Both the position numbers and the translations under genes were made by a program. The notes under the pieces were generated by a model that was not told the DNA's origin, did not search any database, and saw only the letters and a list, made by a program, of their open reading frames with translations. A stretch of 64,000 nucleotides of DNA. It comes from Flammeovirgaceae bacterium 311. GTDB taxonomy: Bacteria > Bacteroidota > Bacteroidia > Cytophagales > Cyclobacteriaceae. Shown piece by piece: positions 37,854-50,968 of the stretch. The number at the start of each line of letters is the position of its first letter. The stretch's first letter is position 1. Location: the NCBI GenBank assembly GCA_000597885.1, contig CP004371.1, positions 5,336,001-5,400,000 on the forward strand, written 5' to 3'.

Positions 37854-40073
37854 ATGGCAACAGATGTAATTGGAAAACCAAAGAACCGCGTTGACGGGCG
37901 CAAAAAAGTAACCGGCCAGGCGCGGTATGCAGCAGAATTCAGCGTACCTGACCTTTGCTATGGCGTGGTGATCAACAGTACCATAGCCAAAGGAACCATC
38001 AAGTCCATTGACACCAGCGATGCGCTCCGGCATGAAGGCGTGCTGCAGGTGTTTTCGCACGAGAACAGAACAAAGCTGGCTTCTTATGATAAGAGCTACC
38101 AGGACATGGATGCGCCACCGGGTTCGCCCTTTCGGCCATTTTACGACAACAAAATACAGTTTAACATGCAGCCCATTGCCCTGGTAGTGGCAGAAACCTA
38201 TGAACTGGCCCTGTATGCGGCTACCCTGGTAAAGGTGACCTACGAGCAGGAGGCACACGAAACCAACTTTGAGGCACAACGGGCAAACGCCTATGAACCG
38301 GAAGAGTACAAATCAACTCCTCCGCCAGATCCCTGGGGTGCGCCGGAAGAGGCCCTGAATAAAGCCCCTTTTAAGATAACAGAAGAATACGCCCACCCCA
38401 GCCAGCACCACAATCCTATAGAGATGCATGCCACCACCGTGCAATGGGAGGGCGACGGACGCATCACCGTCTACGACAAGATACAGGGTGCCATTAACAG
38501 CCAGAAGTATGTGATGGGTGTGTTTGGGCTGAAGAAAGAAGAGGTGCGGGTGCTTTCGCCCTTTGTAGGAGGCGCTTTTGGTTCTGGACTGCGACCGCAG
38601 TACCAGCTGTTTATGGCGGTACTGGCCAGCCTGGAATTAAAGCGATCGGTACGGGTGGTGCTAACGCGTCCGCAGATGTTCTCCTTTGGCCACCGGCCTA
38701 AAACCGTGCAGCGCCTCTCGCTGGGTGCCTCTGCCGATGGAAAGCTGCAGGCAGTGATACATGAAGCCTTTGGTGAAACCTCCCGCTTTGAAGATTACAG
38801 TGAAGATGTGATCATCTGGCCGGGAGTGCTTTATTATTGCGCAAATGTAAAGCTTAGCCACAAGCTGGTAGGGCTGGATGTATACACCCCACTTGATATG
38901 CGTGCGCCCGGCGGAACCACCGGCATCTTTGCCCTGGAATGTGCCATGGACGAGCTCTCCTACAAAGTAGGCATGGATCCCATGGAGTTCCGCCTGAAAA
39001 ACTATGCTGAAAAAGACCAGATTGAAGGCCTGCCTTTTTCGAGCAAAGAGCTGCGGGAATGTTACCGGCAGGGAGCAGAAAAATTTGGCTGGAAAAACCG
39101 AAAGTCCGTACCCCGCTCCATGCGCGAGGGTCATCAGCTAATTGGCTGGGGTGTGGCCAACGGAGCCTGGGAGGCAACCCAAAAAGAAGCAAGTGCCAAA
39201 GCCATTTTATCTGCAGATGGAAAACTAACCGTTAGCAGCGCCACCGGCGATATTGGTACTGGTACCTACACCATCATGAGCCAGATTGCAGCAGAGACCC
39301 TGGGTGTGTCACTGGATCAGGTGGAGTTTAAGCTTGGAGATTCTTCTCTGCCAAAAGCGCCACTGGAAGGCGGCTCCTGGACTGCATCATCCGTAGGGTC
39401 GGCAGTAAAAAAAGTATGTGATAAGCTGGGAGTGAAACTCCTGGAGCTGGCCCAAGAAATAGATGGCTCTCCCTTCAAGAAGGCAAAACCGGAAGAGGTT
39501 TCCTTTGCCGATGGGCAGATGTACCTGAAAAGCGACACCTCAAAAACTATTGCACTCACCGACATCCTGCACCGGAACCAAACAGACAGCCTGCAGGCAG
39601 AAGCCGATTCGGAGCCCTCAGAAGAGCAGGAGAAATACTCCCGCTATGCCCATTCGGCTGTGTTTGTAGAGGTGAAAGTGGATGAAGATCTGGGTACTGT
39701 AAAAGTAACGCGGGTGGTAAGTGCTATAGCCGGCGGGCGCATCCTAAACCCCAAAACTGCACGTAGCCAAATCCTTGGCGGGGTTGTTTGGGGTATAGGC
39801 ATGGCCATGGAAGAATACTCCTTTATGGATAAGCAGTACGGCCGCTTTATCAATCATGACCTGGCAGAATACCATGTGCCTGTAAATGCCGATCTGCATG
39901 ATGTGGAGGTGATCTTTGTGGAGGAGAAGGATGAAATTGTGAACCCGATTGGTGCCAAAGGGCTGGGAGAAATAGGCATCGTTAGTGTTGCCCCGGCTAT
40001 TGCCAATGCTATTTACCATGCCACCGGAAAAAGAATAAGAGAGTTGCCCATTACACTCGACAAGCTGTTGTGA
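37854..40073 (+). CDS. paoC: Molybdenum-binding subunit of an aldehyde/xanthine dehydrogenase
   Basis: 739 residues from the ATG at 37854; the longer open frame overlaps the FAD gene. The N-terminal a/b hammerhead domain opens G-K-P-K-N-R-V-D-G-R-K-K-V-T-G-Q-A-R-Y. Molybdopterin-binding features include F-V-G-G-A-F-G-S-G, R-A-P-G-G-T-T-G and the C-terminal G-A-K-G-L-G-E-I-G, which carries the catalytic glutamate of the family. The protein oxidises aldehydes or related compounds with water; the exact substrate is unknown. No chaperone gene (PaoD/XdhC-like) for loading the cofactor was seen nearby, so it must be elsewhere. A hairpin at 40121-40174 follows. Confidence 0.92.
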   Translation: MATDVIGKPKNRVDGRKKVTGQARYAAEFSVPDLCYGVVINSTIAKGTIKSIDTSDALRHEGVLQVFSHENRTKLASYDKSYQDMDAPPGSPFRPFYDNKIQFNMQPIALVVAETYELALYAATLVKVTYEQEAHETNFEAQRANAYEPEEYKSTPPPDPWGAPEEALNKAPFKITEEYAHPSQHHNPIEMHATTVQWEGDGRITVYDKIQGAINSQKYVMGVFGLKKEEVRVLSPFVGGAFGSGLRPQYQLFMAVLASLELKRSVRVVLTRPQMFSFGHRPKTVQRLSLGASADGKLQAVIHEAFGETSRFEDYSEDVIIWPGVLYYCANVKLSHKLVGLDVYTPLDMRAPGGTTGIFALECAMDELSYKVGMDPMEFRLKNYAEKDQIEGLPFSSKELRECYRQGAEKFGWKNRKSVPRSMREGHQLIGWGVANGAWEATQKEASAKAILSADGKLTVSSATGDIGTGTYTIMSQIAAETLGVSLDQVEFKLGDSSLPKAPLEGGSWTASSVGSAVKKVCDKLGVKLLELAQEIDGSPFKKAKPEEVSFADGQMYLKSDTSKTIALTDILHRNQTDSLQAEADSEPSEEQEKYSRYAHSAVFVEVKVDEDLGTVKVTRVVSAIAGGRILNPKTARSQILGGVVWGIGMAMEEYSFMDKQYGRFINHDLAEYHVPVNADLHDVEVIFVEEKDEIVNPIGAKGLGEIGIVSVAPAIANAIYHATGKRIRELPITLDKLL

Positions 40074-40120
40074 CAGCCTGCCAGGAGCAACTTTCCTGTT
40101 TTTACTGCCTTTGCAATTTA

Positions 40121-40174
40121 AAGGCCATGCTACTTTTACCGCCGAATAGGTGAGAGGGCATGGCCTTCTTATTT
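40121..40174 (+). terminator. Probable terminator after the molybdenum enzyme operon
   Basis: AAGGCCATGC (40121-40130) pairs with GCATGGCCTT (40158-40167) over a 27-nt loop, followed by CTTATTT. Confidence 0.6.
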
Positions 40175-40342
40175 AGCAAGCTAGATATGCAGGCGGCATA
40201 CCTTTTATACATTTCAGAATAAATTACAGAAGCTCCCGGTTAATTGGGTTAAGATCAAGATTACGTGTTTTTGTTATTGAATTGGCAATAAGTTAAATGG
40301 GGCTGTTTCAAATTCATAAAAAAATAATCTTTTTGTTAACAG

Positions 40343-40373
40343 TTGTGCAAGTAGAGGGAGTGTATTATATTCG
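40343..40373 (+). promoter_or_regulatory. Candidate asnB promoter
   Basis: TTG at 40343-40345 and TATATTCG at 40366-40373 are spaced about 20 bp apart, near the TTTG-N19-TAnnTTTG pattern of Bacteroidota. The -7 box has one mismatch (C for T). It implies a 5' leader of about 120 nt. Confidence 0.3.
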
Positions 40374-40501
40374 TGGAATGTAAAGAGGGCTGCTGCTATT
40401 TTGCGCTCCGCTCTTTGCTTTTATTTAGTGGTTTTGCATCCTGCATATTTACGGCTGCTGATCCATTTTAATCTTCATATAGATCCCAAATACATCTAAT
40501 C

Positions 40502-42169
40502 ATGTGTGGAATTGTTGGTATATTCGATCTGAAGCATAAATCAGATGAATTAAGAGAGCAGGCGCTTCAAATATCGCGCAAACAGCGGCACCGCGGCCCC
40601 GACTGGTCAGGAATATTCCTGAGCGAAAACGCCATTATGGTGCATGAGCGGCTTGCTATTGTAGATCCCACCTCGGGCAAACAACCGCTTTACAGCAAGG
40701 ATGGAAACCTTGTGCTGGCCGTAAATGGCGAAATCTACAACCACCAGGAGCTGCGTAAAGAGCTTGATGATTACGAGTTTTTAACCCAGTCTGACTGCGA
40801 GGTAATTCTGGCGCTTTACCGCAAGAAAGGTGTTGATTTTCTGGAAGATCTGAACGGCATATTTGCATTTGCTTTATACGATAAGGAGAAGGATGTATAC
40901 CTGATTGGCCGCGACCATATGGGCATCATCCCGCTTTACATGGGCTGGGATGAGTGGGGGAACTTCTATGTTTCCTCAGAGCTGAAATGCATATCAGGAC
41001 TTTGCAAGCGCATCAAAGAGTTTGCCCCCGGCCATTATTTATACAGCAAAGATGGCGAGCTGAAAAAATGGTACCAGCGCGAATGGACAAGCTACGAAGT
41101 GGTAAAGGATAACGAGAGCAGTATAACTGAGCTGAAAAAAGCACTGGAAGACGCCGTACACCGACAGCTGATGTCTGATGTGCCTTATGGCGTACTCCTT
41201 TCAGGCGGACTTGATTCCTCCATCGTATCGGCTGTTGCCAAGAAGTTTTCTGCCCGCCGCGTTGAAAGCGGCGATATCAAAGAGGCCTGGTGGCCGCAGC
41301 TGCACTCTTTTGCCGTGGGGCTGGAGGGCTCCCCCGACCTGGCTGCCGCACGCAAGGTAGCAGACCACATCGGTACCGTACACCACGAGGTGAATTTCAC
41401 GATCGAAGAAGGCCTCGATGCACTCCGGGATGTGATCTACCACATAGAAACCTACGATGTAACCACCATCCGTGCTTCTACGCCCATGTACCTGCTGGCG
41501 CGCGTAATTAAATCAATGGGTGTAAAAATGGTGTTAAGCGGCGAGGGTGCCGATGAACTCTTCGGTGGCTATCTGTACTTTCATAAAGCACCTAACCCAA
41601 AAGAGTTTCATGAAGAAACCGTGCGTAAGCTAGGCAAGCTGCACCTCTACGATTGCCTGCGTGCCAACAAATCGCTGGCTGCCTGGGGAGTGGAAGGCCG
41701 GGTGCCCTTCCTGGACAAAGAATTTATGGATGTGGCCATGCGCTTGAATCCGGCTGATAAAATGGCAGGCGGCGGTAAAATTGAAAAGCACATCCTGCGC
41801 AAAGCCTTTGAAGATTACCTGCCCAAAGAAGTGGCCTGGCGCCAGAAAGAGCAGTTTTCGGATGGCGTAGGCTACGGCTGGATCGATACCCTGAAAAAGA
41901 TCACTGCGGAAAGAGTGAGTGATGACCAGCTGAAAAATGCAGTGCATCGCTTCCCGATAAACACCCCTACCACCAAAGAAGAGTACTATTACCGCAGCAT
42001 TTTCAGCGAGCTTTTTGAGGGAGATGAAGCGGCTCGCTGTGTGCCCTTCGAGAAATCTGTTGCCTGCAGTACCGCCATTGCCCTGGAGTGGGATGAGGCC
42101 TTTAAAAAAATGCAGGATCCTTCCGGCCGTGCAGTGAAAAACGTGCACGACCAGGCTTATCAAGACTAA
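40502..42169 (+). CDS. asnB: Asparagine synthetase B, glutamine-hydrolysing
   Basis: 555 residues, the usual length. It makes asparagine from aspartate, ATP and glutamine. The N-terminal Cys 2 (M-C-G-I-V-G-I-F) is the glutaminase nucleophile, and R-H-R-G-P-D and V-N-G-E-I-Y-N-H follow. The synthetase domain has the ATP pyrophosphatase loop L-L-S-G-G-L-D-S-S at about 232-240, S-G-E-G-A-D-E-L-F-G-G-Y and E-G-R-V-P-F-L-D. Monocistronic, with a terminator at 42235-42281. Confidence 0.96.
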   Translation: MCGIVGIFDLKHKSDELREQALQISRKQRHRGPDWSGIFLSENAIMVHERLAIVDPTSGKQPLYSKDGNLVLAVNGEIYNHQELRKELDDYEFLTQSDCEVILALYRKKGVDFLEDLNGIFAFALYDKEKDVYLIGRDHMGIIPLYMGWDEWGNFYVSSELKCISGLCKRIKEFAPGHYLYSKDGELKKWYQREWTSYEVVKDNESSITELKKALEDAVHRQLMSDVPYGVLLSGGLDSSIVSAVAKKFSARRVESGDIKEAWWPQLHSFAVGLEGSPDLAAARKVADHIGTVHHEVNFTIEEGLDALRDVIYHIETYDVTTIRASTPMYLLARVIKSMGVKMVLSGEGADELFGGYLYFHKAPNPKEFHEETVRKLGKLHLYDCLRANKSLAAWGVEGRVPFLDKEFMDVAMRLNPADKMAGGGKIEKHILRKAFEDYLPKEVAWRQKEQFSDGVGYGWIDTLKKITAERVSDDQLKNAVHRFPINTPTTKEEYYYRSIFSELFEGDEAARCVPFEKSVACSTAIALEWDEAFKKMQDPSGRAVKNVHDQAYQD

Positions 42170-42234
42170 AACTTGATTTTGTAGATGGCAGGCTTCTCAA
42201 AGCTTGTTTATTTATGGTACTTTCATCATCATCA

Positions 42235-42281
42235 TGGCTCCATGCTTAGCAATAACACGCTATGCATGGAGCCAATTTTTT
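42235..42281 (+). terminator. Rho-independent terminator of asnB
   Basis: TGGCTCCATGC (42235-42245) pairs perfectly with GCATGGAGCCA (42264-42274) and is followed by ATTTTTTAT. Confidence 0.85.
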
Positions 42282-42385
42282 ATAAGCAATGATGGCACTT
42301 GTGCAAAAGCAGGGGGCAGGGCTGTCTGCTGATTTGTGGAGGATTTAACCCCTGTAGTACCAGATTTATGCAGCAGCTTGTCATC

Positions 42386-42420
42386 CGTCACATCTTTCCT
42401 GCTGTTCATCACATTTATTT
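42386..42420 (+). promoter_or_regulatory. LytTR-type direct-repeat operator upstream of the LytS-type kinase gene
   Basis: Two TCACAT half-sites start at 42388 and 42409, exactly 21 bp apart (two helical turns), as expected for a LytTR-domain dimer. The 35-bp element matches that at 46032-46066 in 31 of 35 positions. A second shared block, AACTAGC then CATAAT, begins 34 bp after the second half-site (42443 and 42454) in both places and probably includes the core promoter. This suggests autoregulation of the kinase-regulator pair. Confidence 0.65.
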
Positions 42421-42634
42421 TATACACTGCCAAACCCTGGTTAACTAGCCCCTCATAATCCGGTGGGGTTCATAAGATGCAAGTGGAAGTATAGCCCTGT
42501 TGCGTCAATAGGTACAGCCTGCTGTAGCAGCACCTAATAAACTACCCCAATTTAAAGTCGGTTAACCCGCGCTTTGAAACAGATTACCATCTTATTGTAT
42601 AAATTGGTTCTGTTAGTTATACCTGTACAACAGC

Positions 42635-44164
42635 ATGAATGGTTTGGTAAATAAATATGCAGATTTCAGCAAAGTAGAATTTTGGGCAACCATTACGCTC
42701 TTTGTTTTTATGGTGTTTTTCTATATCACCGATAGTGTTGACAGTGCATCCTATATAAAGGCTCCCAACAAAAGATTTTTTGATGAAGCCAATATCAATT
42801 TCGATTATTACAGCAACTACTTTTTTCCGCAGCTGCTGCGCTCTACTTTTTTATTCCTGGCCTTCCTGCTGCTGAATTTTGTAGTGGTTCCCAGGCTGAT
42901 CAGAAAGCAGGCCCTGGCCCGCAATGTAATGCTGGTTTTACTGACACTTGCAGCTGCAGGTCTGGTATTGGGGGTAACCGATACTTACTTAAAGAATTAC
43001 CTTTTTGATAGATACGAAAGCGAGCAGGAAGCTTATAACAGCATCTTTAAAAACAGTTACCTGTATGCTTTCTGGCTCTTACTGATGCTCGGCCTTTACA
43101 CTGCCATCAAATACCTGGGGGTGTATCTGTTATCCAATACTAAGACTATCCAGAGCCGCTACAGCTTTATCACCTCCTACAGCATTGCCGCTTTTGTTTT
43201 ATGGATGATTGGTATTTTTTTGCTCCTGATTGCTGGCGCAGATGGGGAGGTGGTCCTCGGCCTTGGCTTAATAACGCTGTTTGGTATTATGCTCTATTCC
43301 TATTCTTTCTATAGCCTGATACCCGCTGCCTTTAGAAAGAAAAAAGCTTTCTTAAATTATATAGGCAGAGTTGCGTTGGTCATGCTCATATCCTTTTTTC
43401 CTGTGGCCTTATTCTTGATGTTGTTTATTGCCCACGAGGAAGTTGCACTTAGTGTTGGTTTGTTCAATACAGCATTTCAGCTACTGATCACAGCGCCGCT
43501 TTCGTGGGTGCTGTACAAACGGCAGCTAAAGGGGAACGAAGAAATTTTTGTACTGAAAACAGCACTGGGACAGTCAAACGCCAACTTCGATTTTCTTCGC
43601 TCACAGATCAATCCCCATTTTCTGTTTAATGCCCTCAATACCATATACGGCACAGCCATTCAGGAAAAAGCAGAACGCACCAGCGAGGGCGTAGAACGAC
43701 TGGGCGATATGATGCGCTTTATGTTGCAGGAAAACATGCAGGACAAGATACCGCTGGCCCGCGAGATTGAATACCTGAACAATTACATGAGCTTACAGAA
43801 ATTACGTACCGATCCCAACCCATGTGTGAAGATTATGGCCGAGATAGAAGAACCACTGGCCCAGGTACAAATTGCACCTATGCTGTTGATCCCATTTGTA
43901 GAGAATGCTTTTAAGCATGGCATTAGCTTCAGGGAACCCTCTCATATAAAAGTAAACCTGGAGGTGCGCGAGCACAAGCTTTATTTTGATGTGTATAACA
44001 GCAAGCACCAAAAGCAGGAAAACGATCCGGAGAAGAGCAAGAGTGGCATTGGCCTGTTGAATGTAAAACAGCGACTCCAACTCCTGTACCCGGCTAGACA
44101 CGAGCTGATTATACGCGAAACCGGGAAAGAATTTTTTGTTCACCTCACGATTCAGTTACATTAG
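42635..44164 (+). CDS. LytS/YehU-type sensor histidine kinase
   Basis: 509 residues. The N-terminal half has about eight hydrophobic segments, with no recognised ligand domain. The His_kinase domain follows, with the phosphoacceptor in S-Q-I-N-P-H-F-L-F-N-A-L-N-T-I at about 324-338, then an ATPase domain with P-M-L-L-I-P-F-V-E-N-A-F-K-H-G and S-G-I-G-L-L-N-V-K-Q-R-L. This is the standard partner for LytTR regulators, and the LytTR gene starts 28 bp after. A repeat element with LytTR-type spacing lies upstream. The signal is not known. It appears complete. Confidence 0.92.
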   Translation: MNGLVNKYADFSKVEFWATITLFVFMVFFYITDSVDSASYIKAPNKRFFDEANINFDYYSNYFFPQLLRSTFLFLAFLLLNFVVVPRLIRKQALARNVMLVLLTLAAAGLVLGVTDTYLKNYLFDRYESEQEAYNSIFKNSYLYAFWLLLMLGLYTAIKYLGVYLLSNTKTIQSRYSFITSYSIAAFVLWMIGIFLLLIAGADGEVVLGLGLITLFGIMLYSYSFYSLIPAAFRKKKAFLNYIGRVALVMLISFFPVALFLMLFIAHEEVALSVGLFNTAFQLLITAPLSWVLYKRQLKGNEEIFVLKTALGQSNANFDFLRSQINPHFLFNALNTIYGTAIQEKAERTSEGVERLGDMMRFMLQENMQDKIPLAREIEYLNNYMSLQKLRTDPNPCVKIMAEIEEPLAQVQIAPMLLIPFVENAFKHGISFREPSHIKVNLEVREHKLYFDVYNSKHQKQENDPEKSKSGIGLLNVKQRLQLLYPARHELIIRETGKEFFVHLTIQLH

Positions 44165-44192
44165 CAGTGCAACCTCATAATATAGTATTTTC

Positions 44193-44873
44193 ATGAGAGC
44201 AATTGCCATAGATGATGAACCCATCGCTTTAGAGATTGTAAAATCACATGCCTCTAAAGTGCCTTTTCTGGAGCTGAAGGCAGAGTTTACAGATGCCTTC
44301 AAAGCCCTGGAATATTTGCAGAAAGAACCCATAGATCTGATATTTCTGGACATTAAGATGCCTGATATTTCAGGCATTGATTTTTTTAACAGCCTAAGCA
44401 AAAAGCCCTTGCTTATTTTTACAACCGCCTATACCGAGCATGCTGTTACTAGCTTTGAAATGGATGCGGTAGATTACCTGCTAAAACCATTTTCGTTGCC
44501 GCGCTTTATCAAAGCCTGTAACAAAGCTTTTGAGCTCTACAATTTCAGAAACACCACCGAAAGCACAGACTATATTTTCATCAAAACCGGCTATGAGCAG
44601 CTAAAGGTTTTGTTTGATGATATCCTTTACCTGGAGGCGGCAGGGAACTATGTTACTTTTGTGCTGAAAGATAAAAAAGTGCTTTCCCGCAGTACCTTCA
44701 ATGAAATTGTAAACCTGCTCCCTGCAGATAAATTTGTAAGGGTACACCGCTCCTATATTGTATCGGTTGCCAGGATCGATAGGGTAGAAAGGCACCAGGT
44801 AAGCATTGCCAGTCTTACGGTTCCGGTAAGCGAAGCCTACCGGCATGAGCTTATTGCTGCACTTAATTCCTGA
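44193..44873 (+). CDS. LytTR-family response regulator
   Basis: 226 residues. The receiver domain (1-118) has D-D-E-P at 7-10, phosphoacceptor Asp 53 in L-I-F-L-D-I-K-M-P-D, and Lys in L-L-K-P-F. The LytTR DNA-binding domain (about 125-222) has Y-I-F-I-K-T-G-Y-E, I-L-Y-L-E-A-A-G-N-Y-V and F-V-R-V-H-R-S-Y-I-V. LytTR proteins bind pairs of direct repeats about two turns apart. Two matching elements lie at 42386-42420 and 46032-46066, so the targets are likely its own operon and the TonB-type receptor gene. Confidence 0.93.
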   Translation: MRAIAIDDEPIALEIVKSHASKVPFLELKAEFTDAFKALEYLQKEPIDLIFLDIKMPDISGIDFFNSLSKKPLLIFTTAYTEHAVTSFEMDAVDYLLKPFSLPRFIKACNKAFELYNFRNTTESTDYIFIKTGYEQLKVLFDDILYLEAAGNYVTFVLKDKKVLSRSTFNEIVNLLPADKFVRVHRSYIVSVARIDRVERHQVSIASLTVPVSEAYRHELIAALNS

Positions 44874-45274
44874 TTGTGGCTATCTATACCTTGTCTGCCA
44901 GCAGTTATTTAGATATTGCTCATGCCCCGGAAATTTGGGTAGTGCTGGTTTTTTAGATTCGGGCATTTAAATATCCAGGAAAAGCAGGTATACCGGCTGG
45001 TGTAGTGCCGGAAAAGCAGTTACAGGGATCTGAAAGCTCTCTTTCACGGGCTTAATTTACTTAAAAAAGTAATGAGTTGCAGCCGGTTTCGACCAATGGT
45101 GGCGGCAGAATGATGAACAACTCCTAATTATCTATCAATACCATACAACCCGCTTACAATGCTGTAGGTCTGGCCCCGGAAGTGCTCTGTCGAAAAGGCT
45201 TCTCTGTTTGTTTTCTTCTGCTTAAATTCAGGTAAACGCTACTTCTTCTTTTATCTAATTAACCATCAACCACT
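44874..45274. other. Intergenic region, no clear signal
   Basis: 401 bp between the LytTR regulator and the dioxygenase-like gene, both +. I see no gene, terminator or copy of the TCACAT element. Confidence 0.4.
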
Positions 45275-45925
45275 ATGAAAAAGGGATTCTTCATGCTCAT
45301 GAAATTCTTCATGCTCATGACTATCTGCCTCATGACAACATGCCAGGCGCAGGATCAGCAGGAAAAACAGAAAGCTACAGCACGCATTGGTGGTCCCTGT
45401 GAAGGATGCGAGGCTATTTATGAGTGGGGCGACCGGAAATTATCGCCCCTGGACACACTGCCTGATTTTGGGGAGCAGGGGCCTAAGCTAAAGTTAACGG
45501 GTACAATTTATAAGCAGGATGGAAAAACCCCGGCCAGTGATGTGATCCTGTATATTTACCACACCGATCAGCAGGGGCGGTATCCCACCAGGGGCAACGA
45601 ACAGGGATGGGACAAACGCCATGGATACCTCAGGGGATGGATCAAAACCGGCGCCGATGGTAAATACATTTTTTATACCCAAAAGCCAGGGGCCTATCCC
45701 GAACGTAACAGTCCAGCTCATATTCATGCCACAGTCAAGGAGCCTGCTAAGGGCGAGTACTACATCGATGACTATGTTTTTGAGGATGATCCACTGCTGG
45801 ACCTGGCCGATCATGGATCCTCTCCCAGGGGAGGTTCCGGAATAATTTCGCTTCGAAAGGAGGGAGATATCTGGGTGGCAGAACGGGATATCATTTTAGG
45901 CTTAAACATTCCCGCTTATGATTAA
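45275..45925 (+). CDS. Intradiol ring-cleavage dioxygenase-like secreted protein
   Basis: 216 residues. A signal peptide (about 1-23, ending T-C-Q-A-Q; a lipobox at M-T-T-C is possible) precedes a beta-sandwich like that of intradiol dioxygenases (about 70-205): L-K-L-T-G-T-I-Y, L-Y-I-Y-H-T-D-Q-Q-G-R-Y-P, R-G-W-I-K-T-G-A-D-G-K-Y-I-F-Y-T and P-A-H-I-H-A-T-V, with the two His ligands in the last. Secreted members are common in Bacteroidota, but their substrates are mostly unknown. The signal sequence contains an exact 18-bp tandem duplication (45286-45302 and 45304-45320), coding F-F-M-L-M-K twice. It lies between the LytTR pair and the TonB-type receptor. Confidence 0.85.
   Translation: MKKGFFMLMKFFMLMTICLMTTCQAQDQQEKQKATARIGGPCEGCEAIYEWGDRKLSPLDTLPDFGEQGPKLKLTGTIYKQDGKTPASDVILYIYHTDQQGRYPTRGNEQGWDKRHGYLRGWIKTGADGKYIFYTQKPGAYPERNSPAHIHATVKEPAKGEYYIDDYVFEDDPLLDLADHGSSPRGGSGIISLRKEGDIWVAERDIILGLNIPAYD
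45286..45320 (+). repeat. Tandem 18-bp repeat in the signal peptide coding region
   Basis: The 17-bp sequence ATTCTTCATGCTCATGA occurs at 45286-45302 and again at 45304-45320 (period 18 bp), duplicating six codons in frame. Confidence 0.9.
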
Positions 45926-46031
45926 GAGATGGTAGCTGGCTGGAGAAAAGAGTAGTAGATCCTGATTTTGAGCTACAGATAAAGATTGTAGCAGCACCAT
46001 AAGTACACAGCCTGTCTCTCGGCAGCGCTTT

Positions 46032-46066
46032 CGTCACATCTTTTCCCCTGTTCATCACATTTAGTT
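46032..46066 (+). promoter_or_regulatory. LytTR-type direct-repeat operator upstream of the TonB-type receptor gene
   Basis: TCACAT half-sites start at 46034 and 46055, 21 bp apart, within a 35-bp element that matches 42386-42420 in 31 of 35 positions. AACTAGC follows at 46089 and CATAAT at 46097, at the same or nearly the same distance as in the kinase promoter. The receptor ATG is at 46138, 41 bp after the start of CATAAT. Confidence 0.65.
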
Positions 46067-46137
46067 GATGCCCTGATCAAAGCAGACTAACTAGCTCATA
46101 ATAAGCCCGGTACTAGAATCCTTTAACCAACATTATT

Positions 46138-48606
46138 ATGAGTAATCCTATTCTTTTTAGCGGCAGTGTTGTAGCATGGCTGGTCACCGATCCCTTCAAG
46201 CTTATTTTTATCCTGCTCTCTGCCGCAAGCTTTACAACTTATGCCCAATCTACCCTCAATGGTAAAGTTGTTGATGAACAAAACAAGCCACTCGCCTATG
46301 CTACTGTAACCCTGCTGAACGCTGCAGATTCTGCCCTTGTAAAAGGGGCCATATGCGATGCTGCAGGTGCATATTCACTGCAGGGGGTTGTTGGCGGACA
46401 ATACCTGCTTACTGCCGGCATACTGGGCTATCAAAAGGGCTGGAGTGCTCCCATAACGTTAGCGGCTGCCGAAACCCGGAGTTTGCCACCCCTGCAGCTG
46501 CGGGAAATGGTGGAGCAAATGAAGGCAGTAACGGTGGTAGGGCAACGGCCCATGATAGAACAGCAGGCCGACCGCATGGTGGTGAATGTAGCAGGAACCA
46601 TACTGGCCACCGGCAATACTGCACTGGAGGTGCTGGAGAAGTCACCCGGAGTGGTGGTAGACCAGGATGGCAACATCAGCCTGAACGGCAAACAGGGGGT
46701 ATCCATTATGCTGGACGGCAAGCGCACCTACCTCTCCGGAGCTGATGTTGCCAATATGCTGCGGAACATGACCAGCGATGCCCTGGATCAGGTAGAAATT
46801 ATCACCAATCCTTCTGCCAAACACGATGCTGCAGGCAATTCGGGTATTATCAACATAAAAACTAAAAAGGAGAAGAACAGGGGTACCAACGGCAGCCTAA
46901 CCCTTGGCACCGGATATGGTCGTTTTGAGAAGTTAAACAGCGGCCTTAGCCTTAACCACCGCCAGAACAGCGTTAACTTCTTTGCCAATTATAATTATGG
47001 ATTAAGCCGCAGCTTTCAGAATCTCGACATTGAGCGGAATGCTTTTATCGGGGGCGAGGTAAACCTCTTCGATCACCAAAATTACATGCTCCGCAACTGG
47101 CAGGGGCACAACTACAAAGCAGGGGTCGATTTTTTCCTGAATAAGAAAAATACCCTGGGCCTGATGGTGAACGGCAGCATTGGTGACTGGGGCTCCAACA
47201 ACACCAACAAAGCCTTACACAGCATTGCGGGCATGGGGCGAGAACGCACCATTACCACCCTTGGGGATATTGATAACGGCTACCAAAACACAACCATTAA
47301 CCTGAACTACGGGAGAACTTTTGAACAGAAAGGCCGGGAGCTGACCTTTGATTTAGATTATTCAAACTATAGGGGCAGCAAAAACAGCTTTTTTAACAAC
47401 AGCTTTCAATATTTCGATAGCAGAACAGACAGCCTTTTTCTGCTCCGCAGTGCATCTCCTTCGGATATCAATATATGGGTAGCAAAGCTCGACTATACAG
47501 TACCTGTAGGTAAAACAAAACTGGAGATGGGGGCAAAGTCGAGCTACGTCCATTCTGATAACAACGCACGCATAGAAAAGCAGGGAAATGAAGCAAATTG
47601 GGAGGTATGGGATAAATTTACAAATGATTTTCAGTACCGTGAGAACATTAATGCAGCCTATGTCAACTGGAGCGGCTCCCTGGGAAAAACTACTGTTGTG
47701 GCAGGCCTGCGGGCAGAGCAAACCTGGTACCAGGGGGTGTCTGTAAAGCACGATAGTACAGCTAAGAATCAGTACCTTTCCCTTTTTCCGAGCCTGTTTT
47801 TAAAGCGTCCGCTCAACGAAAAAAGTGCCCTTGGCTTATCGTACAGCCGACGGGTAGACCGCCCTTCTTACCAGGACCTGAATCCTTTCTTTTCACTGCT
47901 GGATGTAACCACCTACAGCAGGGGAAATCCGCTCCTGCAGCCACAGTTTACCCACCAGCTGCAGTTAAGCCACACCTATAACAAATCTCTGGTAACCAAC
48001 CTAACCTACAGCATTACAGAAGGGCCCATGACGGAGGTAATTGAAACAGAAGGGCTGGATGCTTTCCAGACTAACAGAAACCTTGGTACCCTCACAAACT
48101 GGAACCTGACTGTTTCATTACCGGTACCCATTGCCAAATGGTGGAGCATGCAAAATAACATAAGCGCCTACCACCGGAAGTACACTGGCACTTACCTGGA
48201 GCAGAAGCTCGATGTGGAACAGCTTTCCACCAACGTATACATCATGAACACCTTTAAGTTGCCCCATAATTTTTCAGCAGAGCTGTCGGGCATGTATCGC
48301 TCTCCTACCATATGGGGAACCATGAGAATCAACAGCATTTACAGTGTGAATGCGGGTGTGCAGTATAGCTTCTGGGATCGCAATGCAAGCCTTAAATTAA
48401 GTGCCAACGATATTTTCTGGACCCAGGTATTCAGTGGTCAATCCATCGTTGGCGAGAACAGCATCAGGTTAGAAAGTCGCCGGGAAAGCCGTAGGGTTAA
48501 TCTAAGCTTTCAATACCGTTTCGGAAATAAAGAAATTAGACCTGTCGGCCGTAGGCGGGGAGCTTCCACAGACGAGCAGAACCGCATAAAAGGCGATGAC
48601 AATTAA
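46138..48606 (+). CDS. TonB-dependent receptor-like outer membrane protein
   Basis: 822 residues. A long signal peptide (cleavage after Y-A-Q, about residue 37) is followed by a carboxypeptidase-like domain (about 40-120; L-N-G-K-V-V-D-E-Q-N-K-P-L-A-Y-A-T-V). A plug domain comes next (about 140-240; L-E-V-L-E-K-S-P-G-V-V-V-D-Q-D-G-N-I-S-L and V-E-I-I-T-N-P-S-A-K-H-D-A-A-G), then a beta-barrel (about 250-800) of the outer-membrane barrel family 3 type with R-V-D-R-P-S-Y-Q-D-L-N-P-F. Such proteins import siderophores, metals or small organics using TonB energy, or act in secretion; no ligand can be named. A LytTR-type operator lies upstream and a terminator follows. Confidence 0.9.
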   Translation: MSNPILFSGSVVAWLVTDPFKLIFILLSAASFTTYAQSTLNGKVVDEQNKPLAYATVTLLNAADSALVKGAICDAAGAYSLQGVVGGQYLLTAGILGYQKGWSAPITLAAAETRSLPPLQLREMVEQMKAVTVVGQRPMIEQQADRMVVNVAGTILATGNTALEVLEKSPGVVVDQDGNISLNGKQGVSIMLDGKRTYLSGADVANMLRNMTSDALDQVEIITNPSAKHDAAGNSGIINIKTKKEKNRGTNGSLTLGTGYGRFEKLNSGLSLNHRQNSVNFFANYNYGLSRSFQNLDIERNAFIGGEVNLFDHQNYMLRNWQGHNYKAGVDFFLNKKNTLGLMVNGSIGDWGSNNTNKALHSIAGMGRERTITTLGDIDNGYQNTTINLNYGRTFEQKGRELTFDLDYSNYRGSKNSFFNNSFQYFDSRTDSLFLLRSASPSDINIWVAKLDYTVPVGKTKLEMGAKSSYVHSDNNARIEKQGNEANWEVWDKFTNDFQYRENINAAYVNWSGSLGKTTVVAGLRAEQTWYQGVSVKHDSTAKNQYLSLFPSLFLKRPLNEKSALGLSYSRRVDRPSYQDLNPFFSLLDVTTYSRGNPLLQPQFTHQLQLSHTYNKSLVTNLTYSITEGPMTEVIETEGLDAFQTNRNLGTLTNWNLTVSLPVPIAKWWSMQNNISAYHRKYTGTYLEQKLDVEQLSTNVYIMNTFKLPHNFSAELSGMYRSPTIWGTMRINSIYSVNAGVQYSFWDRNASLKLSANDIFWTQVFSGQSIVGENSIRLESRRESRRVNLSFQYRFGNKEIRPVGRRRGASTDEQNRIKGDDN

Positions 48607-48632
48607 AAACTTTTGATTAGTGTTAGAAAAGC

Positions 48633-48666
48633 AAAAAGGGTCTGCCGGCTGGCAGGCCTTTTTTTG
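48633..48666. terminator. Bidirectional terminator between convergent genes
   Basis: AAAAAGGGTCTGCC pairs with GGCAGGCC plus TTTTTTT over a GGCT loop, with one G-T pair. It lies between the receptor stop (48606, +) and the sensor stop (48692, -); A and T runs on the two sides let it work both ways. Confidence 0.75.
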
Positions 48667-48691
48667 AATTTAACATTGCATTATTAACCGG

Positions 48692-50968
48692 CTATGAGGC
48701 TAATTCACTTGTTTTTTTGTGCATCAGGAGCATGATAAACTGGATTGTTCCTTTATCATTCTGCACCGGGGCCAGTTTAAAGCTGGTAGCCGATCCTGTA
48801 CTGGTGGAGTTGTCGGAGTTAAAGTTAAGCTTATTGCCGGCAAACGCCTGTGCACATCTTTCCTGCCAGGAATCTTTATCTTCTGCAAGCATTTGCAGAA
48901 AATTAGCCTCCAGCCTAAGGGTGCTGTTGATGCCCGAAAACCCGCGTTTCATCTCATCATTCAGGGCTACAATGGTGTAGTTGGTATCCAGCACCAGCAC
49001 GCCATCTTCAGTGCCTTCCATAATGGCTTTCAGGATAGCTTCATTTTGCAGGCTGCTGGCATGAATGCGGTGCATCGCTTCCTGGGTAGCTTCCAGCTCT
49101 TCGATGTTCTGCCGCATTTCTTCTTCGGCAGCCTTAAGTTCTTCTGTGTTTTTCTGTGTTTCTTCCAGCAGTCTTTTGGTCCGGGAGGTGATGTTAAAAC
49201 TGAAGATAAAGGAAGCAATGCTTTCGCCTACTTTTTCTACAAATTCAATTTCGTGTTTCCTGAACTTGTTAAATGATGCAAGCTCTACCACACCTAACAC
49301 TTCATTGTTTAATTTTAAGGGTACAATCAGCACAGAGGTAGGTGGCGCGTCGCCTAATCCGGAAGTAATGCGGATATAGTTTTCTGGAATATCCTCCAGG
49401 TAAATAGTGTCTGCTTCCAGCACACACTGGCCTATGATACCCTCCCCAATCGCCAGTTTTTTCTCAATGAACTTTTTCCTCTCAAACGCATAGGTGCCCA
49501 TCAACTCCAGGTAGCTTTCTCCATTTTCGGCCTGCTTCAAAACAAAGAATCCCCCCTGATTTGCCTTTAAGTAATTCACGAGGTTTTTGATGATCGTAAA
49601 GTAGAGCTCATCTGTGTCGTCGTCCCTGTAGCGCAGAATTTCAGAGAATTCTGCTACGCCTTTGGTGAACCAGTTCCTGAGCTCGTTTTGCTCATTATTT
49701 AGCTTCAGGCTGTTGCGCATGCTTAGGAGTGCCATGCCAAGTTTGTCCTCCTGTTCTATTTCACCAATTTCAGTATCCAGCTTATTGGCGCCAATGCTTA
49801 CGGCAAAAGCAATTTTTTGCTCCAGTGAGTCTACCAAAAAGTTAAGCGAGTCTGCCATTTCCCTAAGCTCATCCTCGGTGTTGATAACAAGTTTACGTTT
49901 GCTGTCAACATTTCCTCTGGATAGTTCTTTTAGCAGCTTGCTGGTATGTATAACCGGCTCAATGATCTTACCTGAAATAAACCCGATCAGAAGTATCAGG
50001 ATCAACAGTCCGGCAATGCTGATAGCAATGGAGTAGGTAAAGATACGGTCAGTTTCCGTGGTCATATCATCCAGGCGCACAATGGTGCCCAATGCCCAGG
50101 GATGAATAGAGCTGCCAAACTGAATGGGTGCAAAACTAACGTATACTTCTTCCTTATTTAAGGTGGTTTGAAAAGAGAAAAATTCTCCTTTACTGATGCT
50201 GCCTGCAAGTGATTGCTCTGTATTGCCCAGGGCTTCGGTAACATTTTTACCAATCAACGCTTTATCCGCATGTGCTACAATGGTTCCATTGTTTGCCAGC
50301 AGAAAAGTAGTGGAATGCTCATAGGGTTTTATTTGTGTGATGAAATCAAAATTGTTGAGTGCAATGTCCATCCCCACAAGACCAGCAAATTCGCCCCTTA
50401 TCAGGATGGGCACACATACAGAAGTGCCAAATACATCGTCTTTATTGGTGCTGGAATACTCGCTAAAGGAATAAGGATCGGTAATCTCCTCATTTTTAGA
50501 AAGCTTTAAATCGTGGTAGAGGCTACCAACTTTATCGCCATCCAGGTTAAGTGAATCAACAACAGAATCTTTGCTTCTGTAAACAGTGTATCTTTTTCTC
50601 CCAAATTTTTTCCCCCAGGCCGGATCAAGTGCATTCAGCTCCAGGCTTGCCCAGGTGCTGTGGTAGCGGTCGTCCTGCTGAACAATCCCAAGCAGCACTT
50701 TTAAAATGGCCATGCTCCTAAGGCTGTCACTTTCCTGAAAATATTGCTCAATATTAGCAGCCATGGCGCCGGCTACTCCTAAATCGTGTGATAATAAGGC
50801 TTTGGAATCATTTGCATTTCGAAGCGCATACTGATTAGCAATGTTCGTAGCGTCCTCTATGGCTTTGTGCTGGGTATTTACAATGATGAACCCGACAATG
50901 AACACATAGGTGAAAAGAAAAACAGCCGCAATGGAGAGGGTGAGCTTTGCACGCAGTTTTAGCTTCAT
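48692..50968 (-). CDS. Cache-HAMP-GAF-PAS sensor protein without a visible output domain
   Basis: 758 residues. A membrane helix (about 10-32) and a periplasmic double-Cache sensing domain (about 40-300; Y-S-T-W-like segment, then F-A-G-L-V-G-M-D-I-A-L) lead to a second helix (about 309-333) and HAMP (about 335-390). A GAF domain lies at about 430-590 (G-E-G-I-I-G-Q-C-V-L-E, V-L-I-V-P-L-K-L-N-N-E-V-L-G-V-V-E), a coiled coil at about 605-650 and a PAS-like domain at about 655-755. No kinase, cyclase or HTH domain follows. It may work through protein partners or be a scaffold, as in some gliding Bacteroidota sensors. Confidence 0.82.
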   Translation of the reverse strand: MKLKLRAKLTLSIAAVFLFTYVFIVGFIIVNTQHKAIEDATNIANQYALRNANDSKALLSHDLGVAGAMAANIEQYFQESDSLRSMAILKVLLGIVQQDDRYHSTWASLELNALDPAWGKKFGRKRYTVYRSKDSVVDSLNLDGDKVGSLYHDLKLSKNEEITDPYSFSEYSSTNKDDVFGTSVCVPILIRGEFAGLVGMDIALNNFDFITQIKPYEHSTTFLLANNGTIVAHADKALIGKNVTEALGNTEQSLAGSISKGEFFSFQTTLNKEEVYVSFAPIQFGSSIHPWALGTIVRLDDMTTETDRIFTYSIAISIAGLLILILLIGFISGKIIEPVIHTSKLLKELSRGNVDSKRKLVINTEDELREMADSLNFLVDSLEQKIAFAVSIGANKLDTEIGEIEQEDKLGMALLSMRNSLKLNNEQNELRNWFTKGVAEFSEILRYRDDDTDELYFTIIKNLVNYLKANQGGFFVLKQAENGESYLELMGTYAFERKKFIEKKLAIGEGIIGQCVLEADTIYLEDIPENYIRITSGLGDAPPTSVLIVPLKLNNEVLGVVELASFNKFRKHEIEFVEKVGESIASFIFSFNITSRTKRLLEETQKNTEELKAAEEEMRQNIEELEATQEAMHRIHASSLQNEAILKAIMEGTEDGVLVLDTNYTIVALNDEMKRGFSGINSTLRLEANFLQMLAEDKDSWQERCAQAFAGNKLNFNSDNSTSTGSATSFKLAPVQNDKGTIQFIMLLMHKKTSELAS

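Follow-up and report, generated by a model that had tools for sequence, protein, structure and literature searches.

Two nearly identical DNA elements lie in a 64,000-nucleotide stretch of the genome of Flammeovirgaceae bacterium 311 (contig CP004371.1, positions 5,336,001 to 5,400,000; hereafter the window), one upstream of a membrane histidine kinase gene and the other upstream of a gene for a TonB-type receptor, with the gene of a LytTR-type response regulator between them. This arrangement raises the question of whether the elements are the operators of that regulator and, if so, which promoters they control. An earlier note on this DNA had proposed that they are, with autoregulation, control of the receptor and perhaps of a dioxygenase-like gene in the same interval. 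Our sequence comparisons indicate that the elements are very probably the operators of the regulator encoded between them, which would activate its own operon, the receptor gene and two further promoters near 588 kb on the same contig.

The two elements (42386-42420 and 46032-46066) are identical at 31 of 35 positions, and the TCACAT motifs begin, as the earlier note had described, at 42388 and 42409 in one and at 46034 and 46055 in the other, 21 bp from start to start. The window contains two copies of the pattern TCACAT-N15-TCACAT, whereas shuffled sequence has 0.01 on average. The conserved element itself is 33 bp long, wider than the earlier drawing of it (Table 1), and has the architecture of a direct repeat, TTCRTCACATTT-N9-TTCRTCACATTT, so that the half-site measures about 12 bp rather than 6 bp.

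A kinase search returned 47 loci from genera including Rufibacter, Rhodocytophaga, Segetibacter, Pedobacter and Mucilaginibacter, all 47 with a homologue of the regulator downstream of the kinase (after a gap of 1.1 kb in one case, and with two loci cut by contig ends). When these loci were combined with the window and the 588-kb locus for spacing analysis (49 in total), 53 half-site pairs at 21 bp were found in 41 of the 49, while every other spacing from 12 to 60 bp gave between 0 and 7; the reversed control held 33 pairs across all spacings and one at 21 bp. This sharp peak is the direct-repeat period of about 21 bp that belongs to a LytTR two-component regulon. All 59 sites used have C at positions 6, 8, 27 and 29. 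A leave-one-locus-out matrix was then scored on the 400 bp upstream of the kinase, with a cut-off of 20 and 20 shuffles for each region: 40 of 48 upstream regions scored at least 20, 41 of 48 beat their own 20 shuffles, and in five more loci (L102, L114, L117, L127 and L133) the site heads a co-directional cluster ending in the kinase. The matrix sites had initially been picked by similarity to the window consensus, which inflates these scores, and the next test was therefore run on other loci. With a matrix from 55 sites (L088-L095 excluded) applied to the 1.5 kb upstream of the 34 other kinase matches whose loci entered the analysis, 28 of the 34 loci scored at least 18, against 0 of 34 in the reversed control; the L219 site is identical to a training site and probably comes from the same species. 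The window operators score 42.4 and 43.6, and the reversed control contains no site of at least 18 in 1.24 Mb. The element was thus found where the earlier note had suggested looking for it, at orthologous LytTR pairs, and the lack of conservation that had been named beforehand as grounds for abandoning the proposal did not occur.

The motif also accompanies the kinase from genome to genome. Allowing up to two mismatches, 39 sites were found in 28 of 241 genomes of the order, with 14 matches in the reversed control, and the motif is present in 7 of the 9 genomes with a close kinase (at least 500 bits) against 21 of the 232 others (Fisher p = 4e-6). Three of these 21 genomes, which carry distant kinases only (G088, G104 and G135), have sites 0.1-0.6 kb before the matched kinase stretch; the remainder correspond to about the control rate. 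A class-wide search of 395 genomes for the operator together with a consensus -7 box yielded 29 sites, spread over 24 genomes, and 7 matches in the control; it misses the window genome, whose boxes deviate from the consensus, and in the inspected loci of one family the kinase or known target genes follow the site.

The operator stands in a fixed register to a predicted promoter. The sigma-A -7 box of Flavobacterium psychrophilum, TAnnTTTG, extends from -12 to -5 (PMC9723704). In the further loci, TAnnnTTG or TAnnTTTG starts exactly 58 bp past the first base of the operator at the best site in 33 of 34, a count that includes the best sites of six loci below threshold, and the 59 training sites show 43 such boxes between offsets 57 and 59, of which 37 start at exactly 58; the gap between operator and -7 box is thus a rigid 25 bp. 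The earlier note had described AACTAGC and CATAAT as a second shared block beginning 34 bp after the second half-site. AACTAGC does start 34 bp past the first base of the second TCACAT in both copies (42443 and 46089), whereas the offset of CATAAT (42454 and 46097), which is near the predicted start, differs by 3 bp. As a further operator element the block does not stand: AACTAGC is the Cesiribacter version of the predicted -7 box, TAACTAGC, which L117, L096 and the window all have at the same offset. At the 588-kb sites, by reading, TATACTTG stands at offset 59 and TAACTTAC at about 58-59. Like flavobacterial sigma-A promoters (TAnnTTTG), these promoters have a conserved TA and TTG, here at a fixed offset downstream of the operator; unlike them, the operator ends where the -33 side begins and the Cesiribacter box reads TAACTAGC (PMC9723704). 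In the register of that source the half-sites would occupy about -70 to -59 and -49 to -38, and the fixed offset of the -7 box, with a predicted start, places the repeats just upstream of -35/-33, as in other LytTR regulons.

How far does the regulon extend within this genome? Exact copies of TCACAT-N15-TCACAT number six in 6.67 Mb (one for a control pattern). Two are in the window, two lie between genes at 588.6 and 589.1 kb, and the remaining two, which fall within open frames, look like chance. A longer pattern with up to three mismatches finds exactly four genome sites and none in the control. The 588-kb sites lie about 4.8 Mb from the window along the contig (less if it is circular), beside a second kinase that is 54.8% identical to the window kinase in its sensor part and 90% identical in the phosphotransfer region. 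No LytTR gene or remnant was found beside this second kinase at E 1e-8, and at E up to 10 the sole LytTR match in the 588-kb locus is a 32-residue stretch inside the neighbouring ABC gene. The simplest account would be that a regulator gene at 588 kb was lost or was never present and that the window regulator serves both loci. The neighbouring operon encodes an ABC ATPase and a protein of 1201 residues whose similarity to ABC2 and M1 peptidase stays below the Pfam cut-offs; the operon's counterpart in Nafulsella (L133; 74% and 42% identical) is directly upstream of a complete kinase-LytTR pair and likewise behind an operator. The 588-kb locus is likely the trans part of the regulon, which, because its two operator sites belong to the second kinase and the ABC/peptidase operon, probably comprises four promoters, one regulator and two sensors.

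Searches of the genomes of 40 of the 47 loci, again at up to two mismatches, gave 44 sites in 25 of the 40 against 2 in the reversed control; of the 16 off-kinase sites examined, two (L174 and L187) fall inside genes and are chance-like. In a catalogue of 88 sites scoring at least 18, which includes loci chosen for having a site, the next-downstream genes include the kinase itself, and a TonB-like receptor gene stands behind the operator in 15 places by tblastn or Pfam: the window, L104, L107 (truncated by its contig), L108, L110, L112, L117, L121, L123 (where the mechanical open frame of the receptor overruns the site), L127, L131, L173, L175, L176 and L183. The proposed autoregulation with receptor control therefore fits the comparative data, with L101 and L133 as exceptions. 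Other downstream genes encode (i) alpha/beta hydrolases at six Pedobacter loci, alike by eye (Pfam was run on L177 only), (ii) esterases at two loci (Pfam on L185 only), (iii) a PF00144 serine hydrolase at L099 by Pfam, with similar starts by eye at L102, L103 and L114, (iv) a DUF4932 protein at L180, and (v) ABC transporters. Among the last, the closest model for the ABC ATPase of L117 is one for lantibiotic protection, although its 236.9 bits fall short of the cut-off of 309.75, and the accompanying permease has weak similarity to lantibiotic-immunity permeases. The dioxygenase-like gene, in contrast to the earlier suggestion, is rejected as a regulon member: the best operator score upstream of it is -11, and a homologue is absent from the 46 other loci.

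We infer from these data that the regulator, once phosphorylated, would occupy both half-sites of an operator, which are separated by two helical turns and lie on the same face of the DNA, at about -70 to -38. From this place beside the -33 region of a sigma-A promoter, whose -7 box stands at a fixed distance, it would recruit RNA polymerase. Activation would extend to the operon that encodes the kinase and the regulator itself, to the receptor gene and, in trans, to the promoters of the second kinase and of the ABC-transporter/M1-peptidase-like operon at 588.6 and 589.1 kb, with both kinases presumably passing phosphate to the one regulator. Activation is the more likely direction of control because autoactivated LytTR operons elsewhere, most of which have 9-bp repeats separated by 12 bp and often located 10 bp ahead of -35 (PMC6193735), share the repeat spacing and place; both features are classical of LytTR activators. 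The closest parallels are HdrRM and BrsRM of Streptococcus mutans, whose 9-bp direct repeats with mostly 12-bp spacers give the same 21-bp period and immediately precede the -35 box both in the operon of the regulator itself and at its targets; there, however, the partner is a membrane inhibitor rather than a kinase, the half-site is ACCTCTTAG-like rather than TTCRTCACATTT, and the promoter type differs (PMC6193735). Since its partner is a PF06580 kinase and its regulator has a receiver domain, the locus was not assigned to the LytTR Regulatory System (LRS). Escherichia coli YpdAB also has a LytTR response regulator and a direct repeat, GGCATTTCAT, with a 21-bp period as read from a probe in Table 1 of the source, but differs in half-site and target (PMC4847170). 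BtsR (NF008677) is the best NCBIfam match of the window regulator, and a BtsR/YehT equivalog was rejected at 103.2 bits against a cut-off of 246. In RcoM/CoxC, LytTR repeats are likewise spaced by about two turns of the helix and close to the core promoter; unlike here, there are three repeats, sensor and LytTR domain share one protein, and CoxC represses (PMC11347149).

That last difference leads to the possibility that the same operators serve repression, with polymerase blocked until a signal removes the LytTR protein. The operator of the LytTR repressor CoxC overlaps the -35 box (PMC11347149), and therefore the position of a site alone cannot settle the direction of control; moreover, the second half-site here would end about 5 bp before -33 in the inferred register. 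Nevertheless, the sites end upstream of -33 and hold their rigid gap to the -7 box, much as in autoactivated operons (PMC6193735), and by an unscored reading no clear TTTG is seen at -33, as expected of an activator-dependent promoter, so that we consider repression unlikely. Less probable still is that another transcription factor reads the sites, either a LytTR paralogue or a CRP-like protein. A CRP site is the inverted repeat TGTGA-N6-TCACA, and the TCACA of the operator resembles one half of this palindrome, but the repeats are direct and the 49 loci show no inverted-pair peak, for which reason a CRP-type site was rejected. The genome has 20 other LytTR matches, and a paralogue could in principle read the sites. 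However, the sites track the kinase-LytTR pair across genomes, the nearest LytTR paralogues in the genome are 34-38% identical, and the nine examined depart from 46 orthologues at eight positions of the LytTR domain where conservation among those orthologues is 90% or higher, differences that argue against cross-binding of the operators. It could finally be supposed that a recent duplication or chance similarity produced functionless copies, only two of which are in the window; against 0.01 copies expected there, and with the element found again before kinase orthologues of genera that belong to several orders, most of the flanking sequence being different, this seems scarcely credible.

Several observations also weigh against an activated LytTR regulon. 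Three of the 48 loci lack a site above threshold (L107 weak; L118 and L142 none), as do 6 of the 34 further loci and, at up to two mismatches, 15 of the 40 kinase-locus genomes; two shuffle sets reached 18.4 and 18.5. The L221 site is 1 kb upstream of the kinase and lacks the -7 box, and the Cesiribacter box departs from the consensus. Receptor-type genes near the kinase at L101 and L133 have no operator, second sites at L096 10521 and L097 12695 have no evident target gene, and the sampled genomes are related by descent, so that the counts overstate independence.

Table 1. Features of the locus (window coordinates; the distant operator sites are given in genome coordinates).
Feature	Position	Strand	Remarks
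Operator 1	42384..42416	+	Half-sites 42384-42395 and 42405-42416, 21 bp apart; upstream of kinase gene
Predicted -7 box TAACTAGC	42442..42449	+	58 bp past start of operator 1; predicted transcription start ~42454
Membrane histidine kinase	42635..44164	+	PF06580; 7 candidate membrane helices by hydropathy
Response regulator	44193..44873	+	Receiver and LytTR DNA-binding domains; proposed binder of the operators
Intradiol-dioxygenase-like gene	45275..45925	+	PF00775, 36.5 bits; within the interval, outside the regulon on present evidence
Operator 2	46030..46062	+	Half-sites 46030-46041 and 46051-46062; upstream of receptor gene; score 43.6
Predicted -7 box TAACTAGC	46088..46095	+	Offset as in orthologous sites; predicted transcription start ~46100
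TonB-dependent-transporter-like outer-membrane barrel	46138..48606	+	CarboxypepD_reg and OMP_b-brl_3; proposed target
Distant operator sites	588,639-588,672; 589,136-589,169	minus; plus	Between second kinase gene and divergent ABC-transporter operon

Gene calls and Pfam both place the LytTR regulator gene between the elements, as previously claimed, and its receiver and LytTR domains beside a His_kinase-family kinase are those of a LytTR two-component regulon; solved structures matched by sequence are mostly receiver domains. The description of the kinase as LytS-type is true of its His_kinase domain (H-box NPHFLFN, residue 326), whereas Pfam reports no 5TM-Lyt sensor domain. For the kinase model (pLDDT 77.9, pTM 0.51), the similarity to solved structures resides mainly in the kinase core (GanS 6swk, target TM 0.69), and no sensor was identified among the 50 structure matches listed. 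The model of the receptor (pLDDT 76.5, pTM 0.68) has TonB-dependent transporters, by their titles, as the 50 PDB fold matches listed, which indicates the plug and large barrel fold of such a transporter; Pfam does not report a Plug domain. The kinase transcript would have a leader of about 180 nt (42454-42634), in which, as elsewhere in 40000-49000, no Rfam family was found at the gathering threshold; in many orthologues the start codon is about 15 nt past the predicted start (52-53 bp after the operator).

Further observations concern related loci. The second kinase and the divergent operon of the host, each with its operator, correspond to L032 6775-8352 and 9231-13774 (genome 586.8-593.8 kb). 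In G028 (L089 7609-9532), an IS3-type-transposase-like open frame lies between the operator and an ABC/M1-peptidase-like operon with 52% and 29% identity to that of the window genome. Pedobacter ginsengisoli (L126) has a second kinase-LytTR pair behind an operator (L181 3211-5348), the regulator being 52% identical to that of the window. Receptor operators of two Pedobacter genomes (L121 9771-9803 and L123 9768-9800) read TTCAGCACATTT in both half-sites, and their kinase operators retain TTCATCACATTT/TTTATCACATTT. Co-variation of the half-site variant TCATCCC with Mucilaginibacter regulators was set aside, as many residues differ and are too entangled with descent to read. In a genome of another family (G552; L249, L270, L273 and L274), four operator-like sites with a -7-like box were seen, at least three of them just upstream of proteins with signal-peptide-like starts.

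Among titles and abstract starts, a partial coverage in which absence weighs little, we found no report of this half-site, of the base-exact -7 register, or of these targets, nor of an operator or regulon of any Bacteroidota LytTR regulator; with 21 LytTR matches in this genome, the window regulator included, such regulators can be plentiful in the phylum. It is possible, as a tentative extension, that the regulon is widespread in Bacteroidota, with one LytTR regulator, sometimes more than one sensor, a rigid promoter module and peptide- or envelope-directed genes, namely TonB-like receptors, ABC transporters with lantibiotic protection and immunity among their nearest curated models, secreted serine hydrolases and esterases, and an ABC permease similar to M1 peptidases; the regulon may answer peptide antibiotics or peptide signals. 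The operator constitutes a concrete, testable candidate binding sequence with a promoter register kept to the base pair, and it allows candidate target genes to be listed for genomes with the kinase-LytTR pair. The host genome itself provides a natural example in which a single regulator may serve two kinases.

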